Below are positions 1-64,000 of a stretch of DNA of 64,000 nt, one piece after another. This DNA is from Bacteroidales bacterium. GTDB lineage: Bacteria; Bacteroidota; Bacteroidia; Bacteroidales; P3. A model generated the notes under the pieces. It was not told where the DNA came from. It saw only the letters and a list, made by a program, of their open reading frames with translations, and searched no databases. The stretch is taken from positions 1-64,000 of the forward strand of contig JAFVBC010000011.1 of the NCBI GenBank assembly GCA_017480185.1, given 5' to 3'. How positions within the stretch are numbered: position 1 is the stretch's first letter; each line of letters starts with the position of its first letter. Made by a program: the position numbers and the translations under genes.

Positions 1-42
1 AACTGAAGAACGGCCCTACTTGACACCTACCAACTACCTCCA
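1..42. repeat. Right half of an 11-base phased intergenic repeat element
   Basis: The first 15 bases (AACTGAAGAACGGCC) are identical to 25251-25265, the right arm of the large palindrome at 25211-25265. They are followed by CTACTTGACAC and CTACCAACTAC, two units at 11-base spacing resembling the CCTACTTGATA units seen elsewhere. The left half would lie outside the window. Function is unknown. Confidence 0.7.
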
Positions 43-3612: not shown

Positions 3613-4420
3613 AGCCACACCAGCACTTCCTTTTTCAAAAAACTAACACTACGCACATCAAAACCACACACGTTTAGAACATACTCTATACTCTACACTC
3701 TACACTCTACACTCTACACTCTACACTCTATACTCTATACTCTACATTCTATACTCTATACCCTATACTCCATACTCTATACATACTCTACACTCTATAC
3801 CCTACACTCTATACCATATACCCTATACCCTACACTCTATACTCTATACTCTATACTCTATACTCTATACTCTATACTCTATACTCTATACTCTACACTC
3901 TATACCCTACACTCTATACCATATACCCTATACCCTACACTCTATACCCTATACCCTACACGCTATACTCCATACATACTCTATACTCCATACTCCATAC
4001 TCTACACTCTCTACACTCTCTGCCCTCTCATACCATAATTTTCCTCATATATTCCAAACACGCGACCACAATACTATACATTCACTCGGCCAACACCCTC
4101 CAATATATATACACTCACAATATACCACTCAATATATAGTTCCGCACATTCCATAAGACTTTGCCTCATTGAGGAAGTTCTTTGCCTGCACCTCACTCTC
4201 GCAACGCACAAATATCATATTGATATTATATAGCCTCATCGCCCCCCCCTCTACAAACACACCTTTCCACACCTTTCATTCTATCCACATGTCCTATCCA
4301 AACACATGTCCAGTCCATTGCCTGTGTAACATCACGATAATTTACAGGATTTCAAGATTTACCTAAAACATAAAATACCTATACCAACAAATATTGCCTT
4401 TTTTACATAACTAAACAGAA
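3613..4420. other. Gene-free interval between convergent genes
   Basis: This interval of about 800 bases separates yicC from the convergent T9SS cargo gene. It contains the heptamer array at 3681-4023, then AT-rich low-complexity DNA, and a C8 run at 4242-4249. A 65-codon open frame at 4169-4366 has no signal peptide, recognisable domain or plausible composition, and I do not call it a gene. Confidence 0.7.
3681..4023. repeat. Heptamer tandem array, unit TAYACTC
   Basis: About 340 bases consist almost entirely of the 7-base unit TACACTC / TATACTC and close variants (TATACCC, CATACTC). Uniform runs of TATACTC at about 3837-3890 are flanked by two nearly identical mixed blocks starting at 3786 and 3891. 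These are 105 bases (15 units) apart, showing block duplication as well as unit slippage. One strand is almost free of G. Confidence 0.95.
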
Positions 4421-25017: not shown

Positions 25018-25188
25018 AGATCAAGAAAGTTCTTCATTTCCCCACCTCGTTTACAACCCTCTTCTTGAGGGCTGTAGGCTTATATCGTGGTTGGTAGGCA
25101 GGCTGTTTTGCGTGGCGTACAAGCGCTCCTTGAATGAAATTGAGGGCAAATCTTTGGAAAAAGAGACTAACAACCAACCATCATTGAT

Positions 25189-25300
25189 GCATCAAGCAGG
25201 TATTAAGTAAGGCCGTTCTTCAGTTGTTCTTCAGTCAATAACTGAAGAACAACTGAAGAACGGCCGAAGTTGATACCTACTTGATACCTACTTGATGCCT
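25189..25300. repeat. Large palindromic 11-base phased repeat element
   Basis: A perfect inverted repeat with 25-base arms (25211-25235 and 25241-25265) encloses a 5-base loop. Each arm carries two 11-base-spaced copies of a CTTCAGTTG-like unit. Outside the right arm come CGAAGTTGATA, CCTACTTGATA and CCTACTTGATG (25265-25297, exact 11-base steps). Outside the left arm lie inverted units GCATCAAGCAG and GTATTAAGTAA. The element sits between gldD and the antiporter gene. The rest of 25018-25381 holds a weak hairpin (CCCTC/GAGGG near 25056-25070) and a promoter-like TAACTTTTTG at about 25327. Confidence 0.9.
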
Positions 25301-25381
25301 TGTTTGGCCATTGATACAAATCTCGTTAACTTTTTGAAAAATGAAGCAATAACGACGCTAAATCATCGTTATAGATGACCT

Positions 25382-27640
25382 ATGCAGGAACTTCCATCCA
25401 TCTTCTACGACCTTGCAGTAATTTTAATCACGGCAGGTGTTACCACCGTAATTTTCAAATGGCTTAAACAGCCCCTTGTGTTGGGCTACATTTTGGCTGG
25501 TTTCTTCATCGGGCCTTACTTTCCCTGGTTTCCGGCCGTAACCGACGATGCCAATGTACATGTGTGGAGCGACATTGGCATCGTGTTTTTGATGTTTGCC
25601 CTGGGTTTGGAGTTCAGTCTGCGCCGACTGCGCAAAGTGGGTGCAACGGGAGCAATCACTGCCCTTACCGAATTGGCTGCCATGTTCTTGATTGGCAGTT
25701 CGGTGGGACGCATGTTGGGGTTTGGCTCGATGGAGTGCGTGTTTCTGGGGGCAATGCTTTCCATTTCATCCACTACCATCATCATTAAAAGTTTCGACGA
25801 TTTGAAACTAAAGCAGCAAAAGTTCACCGGTACGGTAACTGCTGTGCTGGTTGTGGAAGACCTAATTGCCGTGGTGTTGATAGTGGTGCTGTCGACAATG
25901 AGCGTCAGTAAAAGCGTCGATGGAGGGGCCGTGGTATTCAGCATTCTTAAACTGATATTCTTCCTCATTGCATGGTTTATCTTTGGCATCTACCTCATAC
26001 CCACTTTTTTGCGCTGGATGCGTCGCTACATGACCGAGGAGACCCTCTTGGTGGTGGCTGTGGGACTGTGCTTTGGCATGGTGGTGCTGGCCGACAAGGC
26101 TGGTTTCTCGACCGCTCTGGGGGCATTTGTCATGGGAGCAATACTGGCCGAGACCATTGAGGTTGAGGTAATTCACAACTTGATAACTCCATTAAAAAAC
26201 CTTTTTGGGGCAGTTTTCTTCGTGTCGGTAGGCATGTTGGTAAATCCCTCGGTGTTGGTGAAATACATTGTACCTATACTGGTTATAGCCCTGACGGTGA
26301 TACTTTTCAAAAGCACGTCGGCCACATTGGGCGTGTTGCTCAGCGGTAGGCCACTGAAAACAGCCATTCAAAGTGGGTTCTGTTTCTGTCAGATTGGCGA
26401 ATTTTCGTTTATCATTGCCGGACTGGGATTGAGTTTTGGAGTAATACGCCCAGAGCTCTACCCGATAATAGTCAGCGTATCAATACTCACCACTTTTGTT
26501 ACCCCATACATGATCAAAGGGGCGTTGCCCTTCTATAACTTCATCGAGCCCCGTCTGCCCAAGGTTATTAAGAAACATCTTGAGAGTTACAGCGAACACT
26601 CGCGCAGCACCGAGACCGACAGCGTGGGCATAGCCAACTTCATTCGCCGTCAGCTGACCAATATTGTGGTTTACGGCGTGATTCTTGCCACCATTGCCAT
26701 CCTGTCGCGTCTGCTGTTGCGCCCCACGCTGAATCATCTGTTTTCCGAAGCCGACATTCCGCAAATATGGAGCCGACTTCTGGGGTTGATAATCACGCTA
26801 ACGCTGATGGCACCATTTCTTTGGGCGGTAGCCGTAAAGAATGTAAGCGCAAAGAAGATAAAAGAGATGTTCGACACCTACCGCTTCTCTCAAGTGGTGG
26901 TCATACCGCTACTGGTGTTGCGCTACTTCACAGCCATATTGTTTGTGGGCATAGCCGTCAGCACATATATCAACATGGCCGTAGGCTTTTTGGGGGTGAT
27001 TGGTGTGAGCGTGGTGTTGGGCATACTGTATACCCGTAGGTCGAGCCATTTCTACTCCCAAATTGAAGAGCGCTTCAAGCAGAATTTCAACTCGCGTCAG
27101 GCACAAAACGCCTTCCGTCTGCCCCCCGGAATGGAAAACGATTTTGCCATGGAGCGGTTGCATTTGTCGCCCTACTCGCCATTGGCAGGTAAACGGCTGC
27201 ACGACATTCGTCTGCGCGAGACTTACGGAGTTAACATCGTAACCATTGAAAGGGGCGAAAATGTTATAGACCTACCCACCAAAGAAGACCTACTGCTACC
27301 CACCGACACACTGACTGTGATTGGCACCGACGAACAGATAACACGCATGCGAACCGATGTTGAGGTGGCTCCAGAAATGCTCATACACGACCGCTCCGAC
27401 CACGAGATGCACATGTATCGCTACCATGTAGAAGAAGGCGGCCCTCTGTGTGGATTGGAAATATATGACTCCGAATTCAACCAACGCCACCATGCTCTGA
27501 TTATAGCCATAGAACGCAACGGAGAAAAAATATTCAACCCCGACCACAACATAATATTTCAACATGACGACCTACTATGGTTCGTCTCGCCCGACAAGCA
27601 AACCATAACTGGTTTTGAAAAGAAGATGATAGAGGTGTAA
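25382..27640 (+). CDS. CPA2-type monovalent cation:proton antiporter with RCK_C domains
   Basis: The 752-residue product has an N-terminal Na+/H+-exchanger domain of about 12 helices (about 8-390; FALGLEFSLRRLR, KAGFSTALGAFVMGAILAE), further helices at about 420-560, and two tandem RCK_C/TrkA_C-like domains at about 595-660 (PLAGKRLHDIRL, DLLLPTDTLTVIGT) and 675-745 (GGPLCGLEIYDSEF, HDDLLWFVSP). It lacks the nucleotide-binding RCK_N domain of KefB/KefC, so glutathione/NAD gating is not expected. It probably exchanges K+ or Na+ for protons. Confidence 0.88.
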   Translation: MQELPSIFYDLAVILITAGVTTVIFKWLKQPLVLGYILAGFFIGPYFPWFPAVTDDANVHVWSDIGIVFLMFALGLEFSLRRLRKVGATGAITALTELAAMFLIGSSVGRMLGFGSMECVFLGAMLSISSTTIIIKSFDDLKLKQQKFTGTVTAVLVVEDLIAVVLIVVLSTMSVSKSVDGGAVVFSILKLIFFLIAWFIFGIYLIPTFLRWMRRYMTEETLLVVAVGLCFGMVVLADKAGFSTALGAFVMGAILAETIEVEVIHNLITPLKNLFGAVFFVSVGMLVNPSVLVKYIVPILVIALTVILFKSTSATLGVLLSGRPLKTAIQSGFCFCQIGEFSFIIAGLGLSFGVIRPELYPIIVSVSILTTFVTPYMIKGALPFYNFIEPRLPKVIKKHLESYSEHSRSTETDSVGIANFIRRQLTNIVVYGVILATIAILSRLLLRPTLNHLFSEADIPQIWSRLLGLIITLTLMAPFLWAVAVKNVSAKKIKEMFDTYRFSQVVVIPLLVLRYFTAILFVGIAVSTYINMAVGFLGVIGVSVVLGILYTRRSSHFYSQIEERFKQNFNSRQAQNAFRLPPGMENDFAMERLHLSPYSPLAGKRLHDIRLRETYGVNIVTIERGENVIDLPTKEDLLLPTDTLTVIGTDEQITRMRTDVEVAPEMLIHDRSDHEMHMYRYHVEEGGPLCGLEIYDSEFNQRHHALIIAIERNGEKIFNPDHNIIFQHDDLLWFVSPDKQTITGFEKKMIEV

Positions 27641-35367: not shown

Positions 35368-35401
35368 ACCGACCTCACACCCTACCATCACCCACCACCG
35401 T

Positions 35402-35456
35402 AGGAGCATATAAGGAGATGAGTAGGAGTTGATCAGGACTTGATAGGGAGATGGTC
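35402..35456 (+). repeat. 11-base phased repeat, five units
   Basis: Five contiguous 11-base units run AGGAGCATATA, AGGAGATGAGT, AGGAGTTGATC, AGGACTTGATA, GGGAGATGGTC. They share the A(C/G)TTGAT core with the elements at 25.2 and 57.8 kb and are near-identical to units in the element at 42.5 kb. The element lies 34 bases past the flippase stop. Confidence 0.85.
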
Positions 35457-35589
35457 CTTACATGTATCATACTATCAACCACTTACACATTCACCTACTG
35501 CAGTCCCAGTGCAAAAAGATAACAGATTGAAAATCAGTAATATTATAAAACGTAACAAAAACGTAACCGTGGGAAAACATCGATGAGCT

Positions 35590-42376: not shown

Positions 42377-42501
42377 AAATCGGACTATATGATTATCCCA
42401 ATCAAAACAATATTTTTTAACAGAACGCACTCAATTAACTGTTATTGTGTACGTTACACAATTTATTTTACAATAAACTCATTACCAATACATTATCGCA
42501 C

Positions 42502-42583
42502 CATCTCCCTATCATCTCCCTATCATCTCCTACAATTGTGGGAGATGATAGGGAGTTGATCGGGACTTTGGTAGGAGATGATA
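42502..42583. repeat. Palindromic 11-base phased repeat element
   Basis: The left half has CATCTCCCTAT twice and CATCTCCTACA (42502-42534, exact 11-base steps). The right half has the inverse units GGGAGATGATA, GGGAGTTGATC, GGGACTTTGGT, AGGAGATGATA (42540-42583). The units match those at 35402-35456. It lies between the radical SAM gene (ends 42593) and prsW, which are transcribed in the same direction, and starts about 10 bases past the radical SAM stop, where it could also act as a terminator. Confidence 0.88.
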
Positions 42584-42592
42584 GCATAATAA

Positions 42593-56287: not shown

Positions 56288-57604
<1,317 letters not shown>

Positions 57605-57632
57605 CTAAATGTTACTTTTCACACAAAACGGG

Positions 57633-57664
57633 CAAAGTTACACAACAAAAGCCACCCATACAAA
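57633..57664 (-). promoter_or_regulatory. Enolase promoter
   Basis: Minus-strand TAACTTTG at 57640-57633 and TTTG at 57664-57661 are 20 bases apart, an optimal Bacteroidota promoter. The leader is about 45 bases. Confidence 0.75.
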
Positions 57665-57699
57665 TATTTTTTACGCCTCGCCACAAACATCACAACCAT

Positions 57700-57852
57700 G
57701 TATCACGCAAGTATCAACTAAGTATCAGGGAGGTATCAAGTAAGGGTCAAAAAGCGATTACCATAGGGCATTGGATATGTTAATAACCCTTAAAGTACCT
57801 ACTTGATACTTAGTTGATCCTTAGTTGATCCCTACTTGATCCCCACATATCC
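57700..57852. repeat. Palindromic 11-base phased repeat element
   Basis: The left half has inverted units GTATCACGCAA, GTATCAACTAA, GTATCAGGGAG, GTATCAAGTAA (57700-57743, exact 11-base steps). The right half has CCTACTTGATA, CTTAGTTGATC twice, CCTACTTGATC (57798-57841, exact steps) and a decayed unit. The 43 bases between them contain an imperfect continuation (AAGGGT ... ACCCTT). It sits upstream of the eno promoter and of the truncated BspA gene. Confidence 0.9.
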
Positions 57853-63369: not shown

Positions 63370-64000
63370 ATGAAGAAATCATTAAAAGCTTCAGTTGCAT
63401 TTATTGCAATCTTTGCCTGTGTCGTGGCAAATGTGAATGCACAGTCTTTCACCGATACAGCCACCAACGGTATTCCTCTGATCTATACCGTGAACGGATC
63501 TGGTACTGTGTCCTTGACAGGCCATGGATTGTCATGCAGCGGAGCATTGATCATACCGGATAGTGTTTCGTATAATGGCTTTTCATACAACGTCATCCGC
63601 ATCGGGAATAGTGCCTTCGATGGCTGTAGCGGACTGACCTCCGTCACCATCCCCAACTCGGTCAGCAGCATCGAAGAATTTGCCTTCAGACGCTGCAGCG
63701 GCCTGACGTCGGTCGTGTTCAATGCTACAAACTGCACCTATACGGGAACAGGCGACCCTGTATTTGTAGGCTGTACAAACCTTGTAACACTGACTATCGG
63801 TGATAATGTAACAAATATTCCAGACCACGCATTCGAATACTGCAGCGGCCTGACCTCGGTCACCATCCCCAACTCAGTCACCAGCATCGGAGAACTTGCC
63901 TTCGGAGACTGCAGCGGCCTGACCTCTGTCACCATCCCCAACTCGGTCACCAGTATCGGAAGATATGCCTTCTCTGGCTGCAGCGGCATGACCTCTGTCA
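63370..64000 (+). CDS. BspA-like leucine-rich-repeat surface protein, 5' part
   Basis: The frame starts with a signal peptide (MKKSLKASVAFIAIFACVVA, cleavage near NVNAQ) and runs open to the window end. From about residue 75 it consists of LRR_5 repeats of 23 residues (CSGLTSVTIPNSVTSIGELAF type). In DNA these are near-identical 69-base direct repeats (63841, 63910 and 63979). Such proteins are surface adhesins in oral and gut Bacteroidota, often with a T9SS domain at the missing C-terminus. The repeat identity invites recombination and length change. Confidence 0.88.
   Translation, partial: MKKSLKASVAFIAIFACVVANVNAQSFTDTATNGIPLIYTVNGSGTVSLTGHGLSCSGALIIPDSVSYNGFSYNVIRIGNSAFDGCSGLTSVTIPNSVSSIEEFAFRRCSGLTSVVFNATNCTYTGTGDPVFVGCTNLVTLTIGDNVTNIPDHAFEYCSGLTSVTIPNSVTSIGELAFGDCSGLTSVTIPNSVTSIGRYAFSGCSGMTSV

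Follow-up and report, generated by a model that had tools for sequence, protein, structure and literature searches.

An 11-base phased, palindromic repeat dispersed through the intergenic DNA of a Bacteroidales bacterium

Units repeated at 11-base steps

Five intergenic loci of a Bacteroidales genome carry short units repeated at steps of exactly 11 bases, which raises the question of whether this period is more than chance and, if it is, what kind of element keeps it. The loci lie in the window, by which we mean the whole 64,000-nucleotide stretch analysed here (bases 1-64000 of contig C5 from the 1.90-Mb, 39-contig genome G000), and the units that an earlier note on this DNA had reported were present at all five.

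The focal locus, a class A element at 25189..25300, is a near-perfect palindrome around a 5-base loop, with ASTTGAT units in its outer part and AACTGAAGAAC units in its inner part. In particular, the left inner arm (25215..25235, minus strand) reads GTTCTTCAGTT with period 11, the right inner arm (25240..25261, plus strand) consists of two copies of AACTGAAGAAC at the same period, and the outer units on the right (25264..25300, plus strand; units at 25264-25296) are CCGAAGTTGAT ACCTACTTGAT ACCTACTTGAT. The right half of a second class A element, AACTGAAGAAC-GGCC-CTACTTGACAC..., is found at 1..42 on the plus strand. This locus had been described as cut by the window edge, and the edge is the physical one: the window starts at base 1 of C5, and the contig itself begins within the element. 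(Other contig ends also lie near elements, with hits at C1:11, C2:23, C4:31, C6:8, C6:9475 of 9519, C7:81, C8:69, C10:3 and C11:27, which is what one would expect if the assembly broke at near-identical copies.) Class B is represented by an array of AAGGAGATGAG TAGGAGTTGAT CAGGACTTGAT AGGGAGATGGT (35402..35456, plus strand; units at 35412-35455), which is not palindromic, and by a hairpin of GGGAGATGATA units with an extension on its right (42502..42584). The class C element has the units CCTTACTTGAT ACCTCCCTGAT ACTTAGTTGAT ACTTGCGTGAT in its left arm (57700..57745, minus strand) and ACCTACTTGAT ACTTAGTTGAT CCTTAGTTGAT CCCTACTTGAT in its right arm (57797..57852, plus strand; units at 57797-57840), followed by a decayed unit. 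Three of the five loci had been called large palindromes, and when folded as single-stranded DNA these three formed far stabler structures than shuffles (z -14.7 for 25186-25302, -6.6 for 42498-42586 and -3.9 for 57698-57842); the array (35395-35462; z +0.6) folded no better than shuffles. At gathering score, Rfam matched only two tRNAs in the whole window, and the elements matched no known RNA family.

The window genome thus holds three unit types: A, with AACTGAAGAAC inside and CCTACTTGAT outside (as at the focal locus); B, with AGGGAGTTGAT and CAGGACTTGAT; and C, with ACTTAGTTGAT and CCTTAGTTGAT. Their common plan, over approximately 60-150 bp, is a hairpin-capable centre of 11-base units from which further 11-base units extend outward with decaying conservation. 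In class A, each side of the centre carries between one and three units (usually two or three) and the loop, with three variable bases, is mostly constant in length; the number of units varies between copies. The core NNNA(C/G)TTGAT(A/C), proposed as common to all units, does recur but not everywhere: the focal element has an inner part built of AACTGAAGAAC units, likewise 11 bases long. The picture of a dispersed 11-phased intergenic family, with linkers and flanking letters that differ between loci as had been noted, is supported.

Genome-wide, exact matches to ASTTGATNNNNASTTGAT numbered 61 forward and 28 reverse, above the 9 and 4 of a reversed-pattern control that is possibly inflated, as arrays can match the reversed pattern themselves (39 vs 38 in genome G455). 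We then measured distances of up to 60 bases on contigs C1, C4 and C5 (426 kb), which hold 255 ASTTGAT sites and 95 CTGAAGAA sites. Pairs of ASTTGAT were 11 bases apart in 26 cases, 22 in 13, 33 in six, 44 in two and 55 in one, with seven pairs at all other distances, and pairs of CTGAAGAA occurred at 11 (42 pairs) and 22 (17 pairs) and nowhere else. A single random sequence drawn from the same dinucleotide model had zero such spaced pairs of either. The preference for 11 over other spacings that the earlier note had put forward is therefore borne out. Consistent with this, the same contigs contained 30 segments repeating at lag 11, two at lag 9 and none at lags 8, 10, 12 or 13; lag 7 gave 15, one source of which is a heptamer satellite. 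(The satellite, ATACTCT in about 48 copies, occupies an intergenic gap at 3681-4014 of the window. Separately, a 69-base tandem repeat at 63832-64000, cut by the window end, has the look of what we take to be a BspA-type leucine-rich surface protein gene.)

Placement upstream of promoters in the window genome

Contigs C1, C4 and C5, together with 41 further stretches picked around pattern hits, were scanned to give a catalogue of 72 elements, which became 70 distinct ones when L100 and L101 were dropped because they mirror L099 and L098 on contig C22. (Mirrored coordinates and gene lengths, and the equal scores of two of its matches, suggest that C22 is a mirror image of itself around approximately 46 kb, probably an assembly artefact.) Two loci, 1-42 and 42502, escaped the catalogue scan; a lag-11 scan recovers the second. 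Thirty-seven of the 70 elements lie between divergent genes, 23 between tandem genes and three between convergent genes; six are at a contig or stretch edge and one is within a called gene. The claim that all copies are outside genes accordingly holds for 69 of 70, the six edge cases having one neighbour unseen, and fails for L107:2203-2246, which may reflect a gene-calling error. (Genes were called with a home-made hexamer script.)

On C1, C4 and C5 an element was present in 15 of 27 divergent gaps, 10 of 115 tandem gaps and two of 18 convergent gaps (Fisher P = 3e-7, divergent vs tandem), and the lag-11 scan of the same contigs placed elements in 14, eight and two such gaps, respectively. 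Divergent gaps are longer; random placement of the 27 elements by free space put 7.9 in divergent gaps, with P = 0.005 for 15 or more. We next located promoters by the Bacteroidetes -7 box (TANNTTTGC pattern). A TANNTTTGC box lies between element and gene at 56 of 101 element-facing gene starts, and boxes in the element-gene interval point toward the gene in 57 cases and away from it in four, as against two and 38 on the far side of the element. Because the boxes are gene-side and gene-directed, elements of the window genome sit upstream of promoters, and from this mainly divergent placement it follows that they are mostly absent from mRNA. At the class C element, for example, the start of the enolase gene (56288..57580, minus strand; Pfam) faces the element, and between the two lies TAACTTTGC (57632..57640, minus strand), which we take to be the Bacteroidetes-type -7 box of that gene. 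Downstream of the focal element is a gene for a Na+/H+ exchanger with a TrkA_C domain (25382..27640, plus strand; Pfam).

In most discussions, interspersed palindromes of bacteria are transcribed elements near gene ends, often linked to a transposase; elements of the window genome have the opposite placement. It is very improbable, in our judgement, that they act at the RNA level, as REP-like or other transcribed hairpins serving as terminators, attenuators or mRNA stabilisers. Three window loci do give strong predicted hairpins, and some relatives have elements in convergent gaps (8 of 42), but in the window genome the elements are promoter-upstream and rarely convergent (three of 63), and among elements selected for pairing the stem mismatches (11 G-T, seven A-C, 37 other) show no clear excess of G-T over A-C. 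Moreover, published REPs lie mainly between unidirectional and convergent genes and are taken as largely transcribed (PMC3733652, in the part consulted), a location that the 37 divergent, 23 tandem and three convergent elements of the window genome do not share.

Pfam scans of 30 flanking proteins identified enolase, GAPDH, RuvB, MnmA, RsgA, a penicillin-binding protein, transporters and others, largely housekeeping or metabolic. The common neighbour gene that the earlier note had thought worth looking for was not among them, one domain pair (DUF5106 with a thioredoxin-like domain) being seen twice, and nothing in these proteins suggests a regulon. Gene-specific regulation was rejected, as the flanks are largely housekeeping genes whose orthologues are mostly without an element: the enolase upstream region is filled at five of 30 loci (G000, G002, G009, G022 and G029; the window genome itself included), and the GAPDH upstream gap is filled in one of 12 element-rich relatives. 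What counts against this rejection is that five of eight enolase loci are filled among genomes that have at least 20 class A or B hits. (At enolase locus L371 a lag-11 score of 17 was found 661 bases upstream.)

The placement bears also on whether the elements are selected for DNA topology or nucleoid structure, the 11-phased units presenting the same face to an array-forming protein, or pinning or absorbing negative supercoils and so insulating divergent promoters. We regard this as unlikely. The filled divergent gaps, in excess even when free space is allowed for, the 57 gene-directed boxes between element and gene compared with two on the far side, and the enolase loci of element-rich genomes argue for it; the single filled GAPDH gap among 12 argues against it. 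A period near 11 is commonly linked to the pitch of negatively supercoiled DNA (PMC4132750, in the part consulted), which would favour such a role, but this reading of genome periodicity is disputed (PMC7537859, likewise in part). Intrinsic curvature was considered and rejected: in a wedge model, elements were predicted to bend by 47.7 degrees vs 28.9 degrees for other intergenic DNA, but random 11-mer arrays were predicted to be equally bent. For all nine units predicted curvature was at or below the 87th percentile of random 11-mers, and for two it was approximately zero, which also tells against selection for topology; predicted curvature thus does not explain the choice of unit.

Relatives and turnover at fixed sites

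Lag-11 scans of relatives (threshold 17 of 22 matching; an N-run row of G002 dropped, and some rows low-complexity or non-palindromic) gave 15 elements in 200 kb each of G009, G002 and G022, five in 72 kb of G012 and three in 120 kb of G011, none of them within called genes. At a stricter cut, lag 11 exceeded each of lags 8-10, 12 and 13 in seven of nine genus stretches, the exceptions being G002, which is rich in 7-, 8- and 9-base arrays (137 lag-7 segments in 200 kb), and G011, which had none at this cut. Filled gaps of the five relatives, pooled, were 15 of 56 divergent, 25 of 225 tandem and eight of 42 convergent, a weaker divergent preference than in the window genome and a point against selection for topology. 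The units of relatives are strongly different (for example AGTTGGTAGGG, AGTTGTCCGTT, AGTATTACGCT and CGGACAACAAG) and by eye have little in common beyond an S-W-W-S pattern, so that the proposed core does not extend across the genus. A protein may still read one face of the helix, as the earlier note had suggested, but a single sequence-specific one would not readily account for such divergent units at constant period.

The class B pattern was found in 43 of 119 genus genomes (at least 20 hits in 14 of them; three control matches overall) and the class A pattern in 19 (zero control matches). G029 has 490 class A hits and zero class B hits, and of the 119 genomes only G000 has 20 or more of both. 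Conversely, 76 of 119 congeners have no class B match and 100 have no class A match, for these two unit types, which weighs against a selected topological function. Among 395 genomes of the phylum, a search sensitive to the ASTTGAT core alone revealed no further rich genome. A contig scan (at least 108 stretches) and a follow-up count placed the core, with linkers of its own, in other Bacteroidales, in Prolixibacteraceae McBI.27 (G464) and in one Cloacimonadota genome (G465). These two genomes were chosen for holding the core, and their lag scans were unconstrained in unit and period. In G464, where lag 11 stands out, 200 kb contained six elements of at least three unit types (four of 23 divergent, one of 18 convergent and one of 50 tandem gaps). 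In G465, which also has 8-, 16- and 24-base repeats, 176 kb contained four (two of nine convergent, two of 30 tandem and none of 14 divergent gaps), the last figure being a further point against a topological role. The design therefore recurs, with other units, in species of the same genus, one Prolixibacteraceae and one Cloacimonadota, and a period that stays constant across two phyla while its letters change is what selection for topology would lead one to expect. (Phage carriage was rejected as a source, the 26 viral stretches with a three-unit pattern looking, by eye, like unrelated tandem repeats. Separately, element hits of G016:C3, approximately 1-95,800, and of G000:C13 are colinear at zero offset over 47 kb in bins of two species, which suggests a contaminant or chimeric contig in one bin.)

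A broader form of the topological idea, which we consider improbable, is that of structural elements defined by geometry rather than letters: hairpin arms of about two 11-base units each, with flanking units at exact pitch. In Bacteroidota and Cloacimonadota alike, though in different sequences, these would act as supercoil sinks or insulators between divergent promoters. A passive origin, in which slippage and quasi-palindrome correction act on chance seeds without dispersal to make minisatellites, seems to us more doubtful still. The variable unit number, the block-like matching of arms and the abundance of arrays of other periods in some genomes (the lag-7 segments of G002) would fit it. 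Centre and junction words beyond the unit that are common to dozens of copies argue against it, as does the predominance of lag 11 in all but two genus stretches.

We reasoned about spread from sites compared between species. For each of two G022 elements, the matches listed include many dispersed stretches of approximately 60-120 bases, at 80-98% and in several genomes. In a syntenic region of G022 (contig C15), four of six gaps with an element (lag score of at least 16) and the same adjacent neighbours were filled in G009, compared with none of 10 element-free gaps; of the two misses, one has a gap of zero length and may be an artefact of gene calling. Nucleotide identity between G009 and G022 is approximately 77%. 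The same comparison with G478 found four of eight filled. At site 63483 an element is present in G022 only (gap of 184), six relatives being empty (gaps of 51-115). Site 67775, upstream of a formyltransferase gene, is filled in G022, G009, G525, G478 and G541, as is the corresponding gap in the window genome, and is empty in G036; the arms of G022, G478 and G525 differ in letters at this site yet match within each. At site 25970, G525 has an 11-base array of another unit and G022, G009 and G478 have none. The window genome and a distant congener both hold an element at each of two divergent sites, which is consistent with selection for topology. High copy number, a patchy distribution and sites occupied in one species but vacant in others together argue that the elements have spread.

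Matching of the arms and comparison with known systems

Arm matching was scored in class B centres of relatives, 54 of them in six genomes, chosen without a filter for pairing. Of the 54, 17, in ten letter versions, had zero mismatch between positions 12 and 22 from the dyad; within-species shuffles gave a mean of 3.2 such centres and a maximum of 10, and none of 2000 reached 17. Two other centre definitions gave perfect arms in 14 of 51 and 14 of 53. Over positions 3-22, 15 centres had no mismatch, two had one, none had two and 37 had at least three. Thus, in about a third of the tested class B elements the arms are perfectly matched over two units, and in the rest there are several mismatches, an all-or-many pattern of the kind expected if one arm is copied from the other in blocks. 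Template switching is a published way of creating and restoring stems (PMC8794818, in the part consulted).

Mean pairing at positions 12-22 of the same 54 centres was 70.9% vs 64.5% shuffled (1 of 500 shuffles reached it), and with two looser definitions of the centre it was 70.2% vs 68.3% (79 of 500) and 69.6% vs 66.5% (27 of 500). This mean, barely above shuffles, counts against selection for topology as well as against the reading that we prefer, set out below. In the 32 unfiltered class A rows of the window genome, positions 4-14 were paired in 98.3% vs 95.7% shuffled (0 of 500 reached it), and positions 15-25 showed no pairing excess (377 of 500). (An apparently strong covariation of arms, 87.9% vs 79.1% shuffled at positions 12-22 in 30 class B elements from six genomes, 31 having been found and one chance match dropped, was withdrawn because those elements had been picked for matching arms, at least 18 of 25 positions.)

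On balance we give an even chance to the reading that this is a non-coding palindromic DNA repeat that disperses and whose two arms serve as block-wise templates for one another. A hairpin would form in DNA, either in the lagging strand or, as a cruciform, where two polymerases diverge and leave a negatively supercoiled gap behind them. A polymerase would then copy one arm off the other, and template-switch repair of this kind would restore the match in blocks. Slippage between units would add or drop whole 11-base units, so that the period would be inherited while the letters drift into species-specific types, and elements would be lost from, or selected against in, transcribed DNA. Several observations count against a dispersing repeat: no mobilising gene emerged from the two families tested and no sharp ends were seen, and turnover is slow, four of six G022 sites being filled in G009 at approximately 77% identity. 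Nor does inheritance alone easily explain why units so different have the same period in two phyla. The palindrome-directed mobile element that had been suggested from the letters is supported by dispersed similar copies, by filled and empty orthologous sites and by an excess of perfect arms in many letter versions.

A gene whose presence tracks the repeats had also been proposed, and neither of the two families tested does so. The Y1 transposase PF01797 had no match in G000 or in four more of the 14 class-B-rich genomes (nine of 14 have one, some rich genomes being only 72-79% complete) and was found in 16 of 20 class-B-poor genomes. The reverse transcriptase PF00078 was absent from 10 of 14 rich genomes, including G000, and present in six of 20 poor ones. 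Both were rejected as tracking genes, their presence not being matched to repeat richness.

We compared the elements with the traits of BIMEs and of RAYTs, the latter being Y1 transposases. Like REPs and BIMEs, they are intergenic palindromes with many copies per genome; unlike REPs, they are larger (approximately 60-150 bp), 11-phased and, in the window genome, upstream of divergent promoters, with no Y1 transposase in G000. By eye, GTAG occurs within some units and is absent from others, and no fixed GTAG/CGTC tag was noticed. Dispersed intergenic copies that differ in presence between species are a MITE-like trait. Sharp terminal inverted repeats of the MITE type were not found in 31 pairing-selected class B centres, where conservation is highest at the centre and decays gradually outward, and no target-site duplications were seen between filled and empty pairs, which are too diverged for one to stand out. 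BrickBuilt of Porphyromonas gingivalis resembles these elements in being a tandem unit within a dispersed intergenic repeat of Bacteroidales, but its unit is a 23-nt direct repeat, in place of 11 nt, within a MITE-like element with IS-like terminal inverted repeats and 19 copies (PMC4596501, in the part consulted). Quasi-palindromes corrected by template switching likewise have arms matched in blocks, and the consulted part of PMC8794818 describes no dispersed families of them with a fixed 11-base inner period.

Eleven-base direct repeats are known from parC-type iterons, which are 11 bp long and read by ParR, and from PhoB-type boxes, which have seven conserved and four variable bases. These are single loci or regulons with a fixed core, whereas the elements described here are species-variable palindromes at housekeeping genes. 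The open-access literature, searched by title and abstract (most subscription papers lie outside it), yielded no description of 11-phased palindromic families. The same 11-base design, found in other letters in relatives and in a second phylum, suggests that these dispersed DNA elements form a class not yet characterised. Keeping a period while the letters change, they make a natural test case for two questions: whether selection acts on the helical pitch of negatively supercoiled DNA, and how palindromes originate and undergo repair.

Two further features were noted by eye. The class A elements of L084 (near 5004) and L110 (near 5026) have in common an extra stretch of approximately 60 bases of decayed, 11-phased right flank, and copying may thus carry outer sequence along. 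In G009, a word near TACTAAGNATCAGGCAGTTA recurs at the right ends of class B elements, which suggests that the elements have an orientation.
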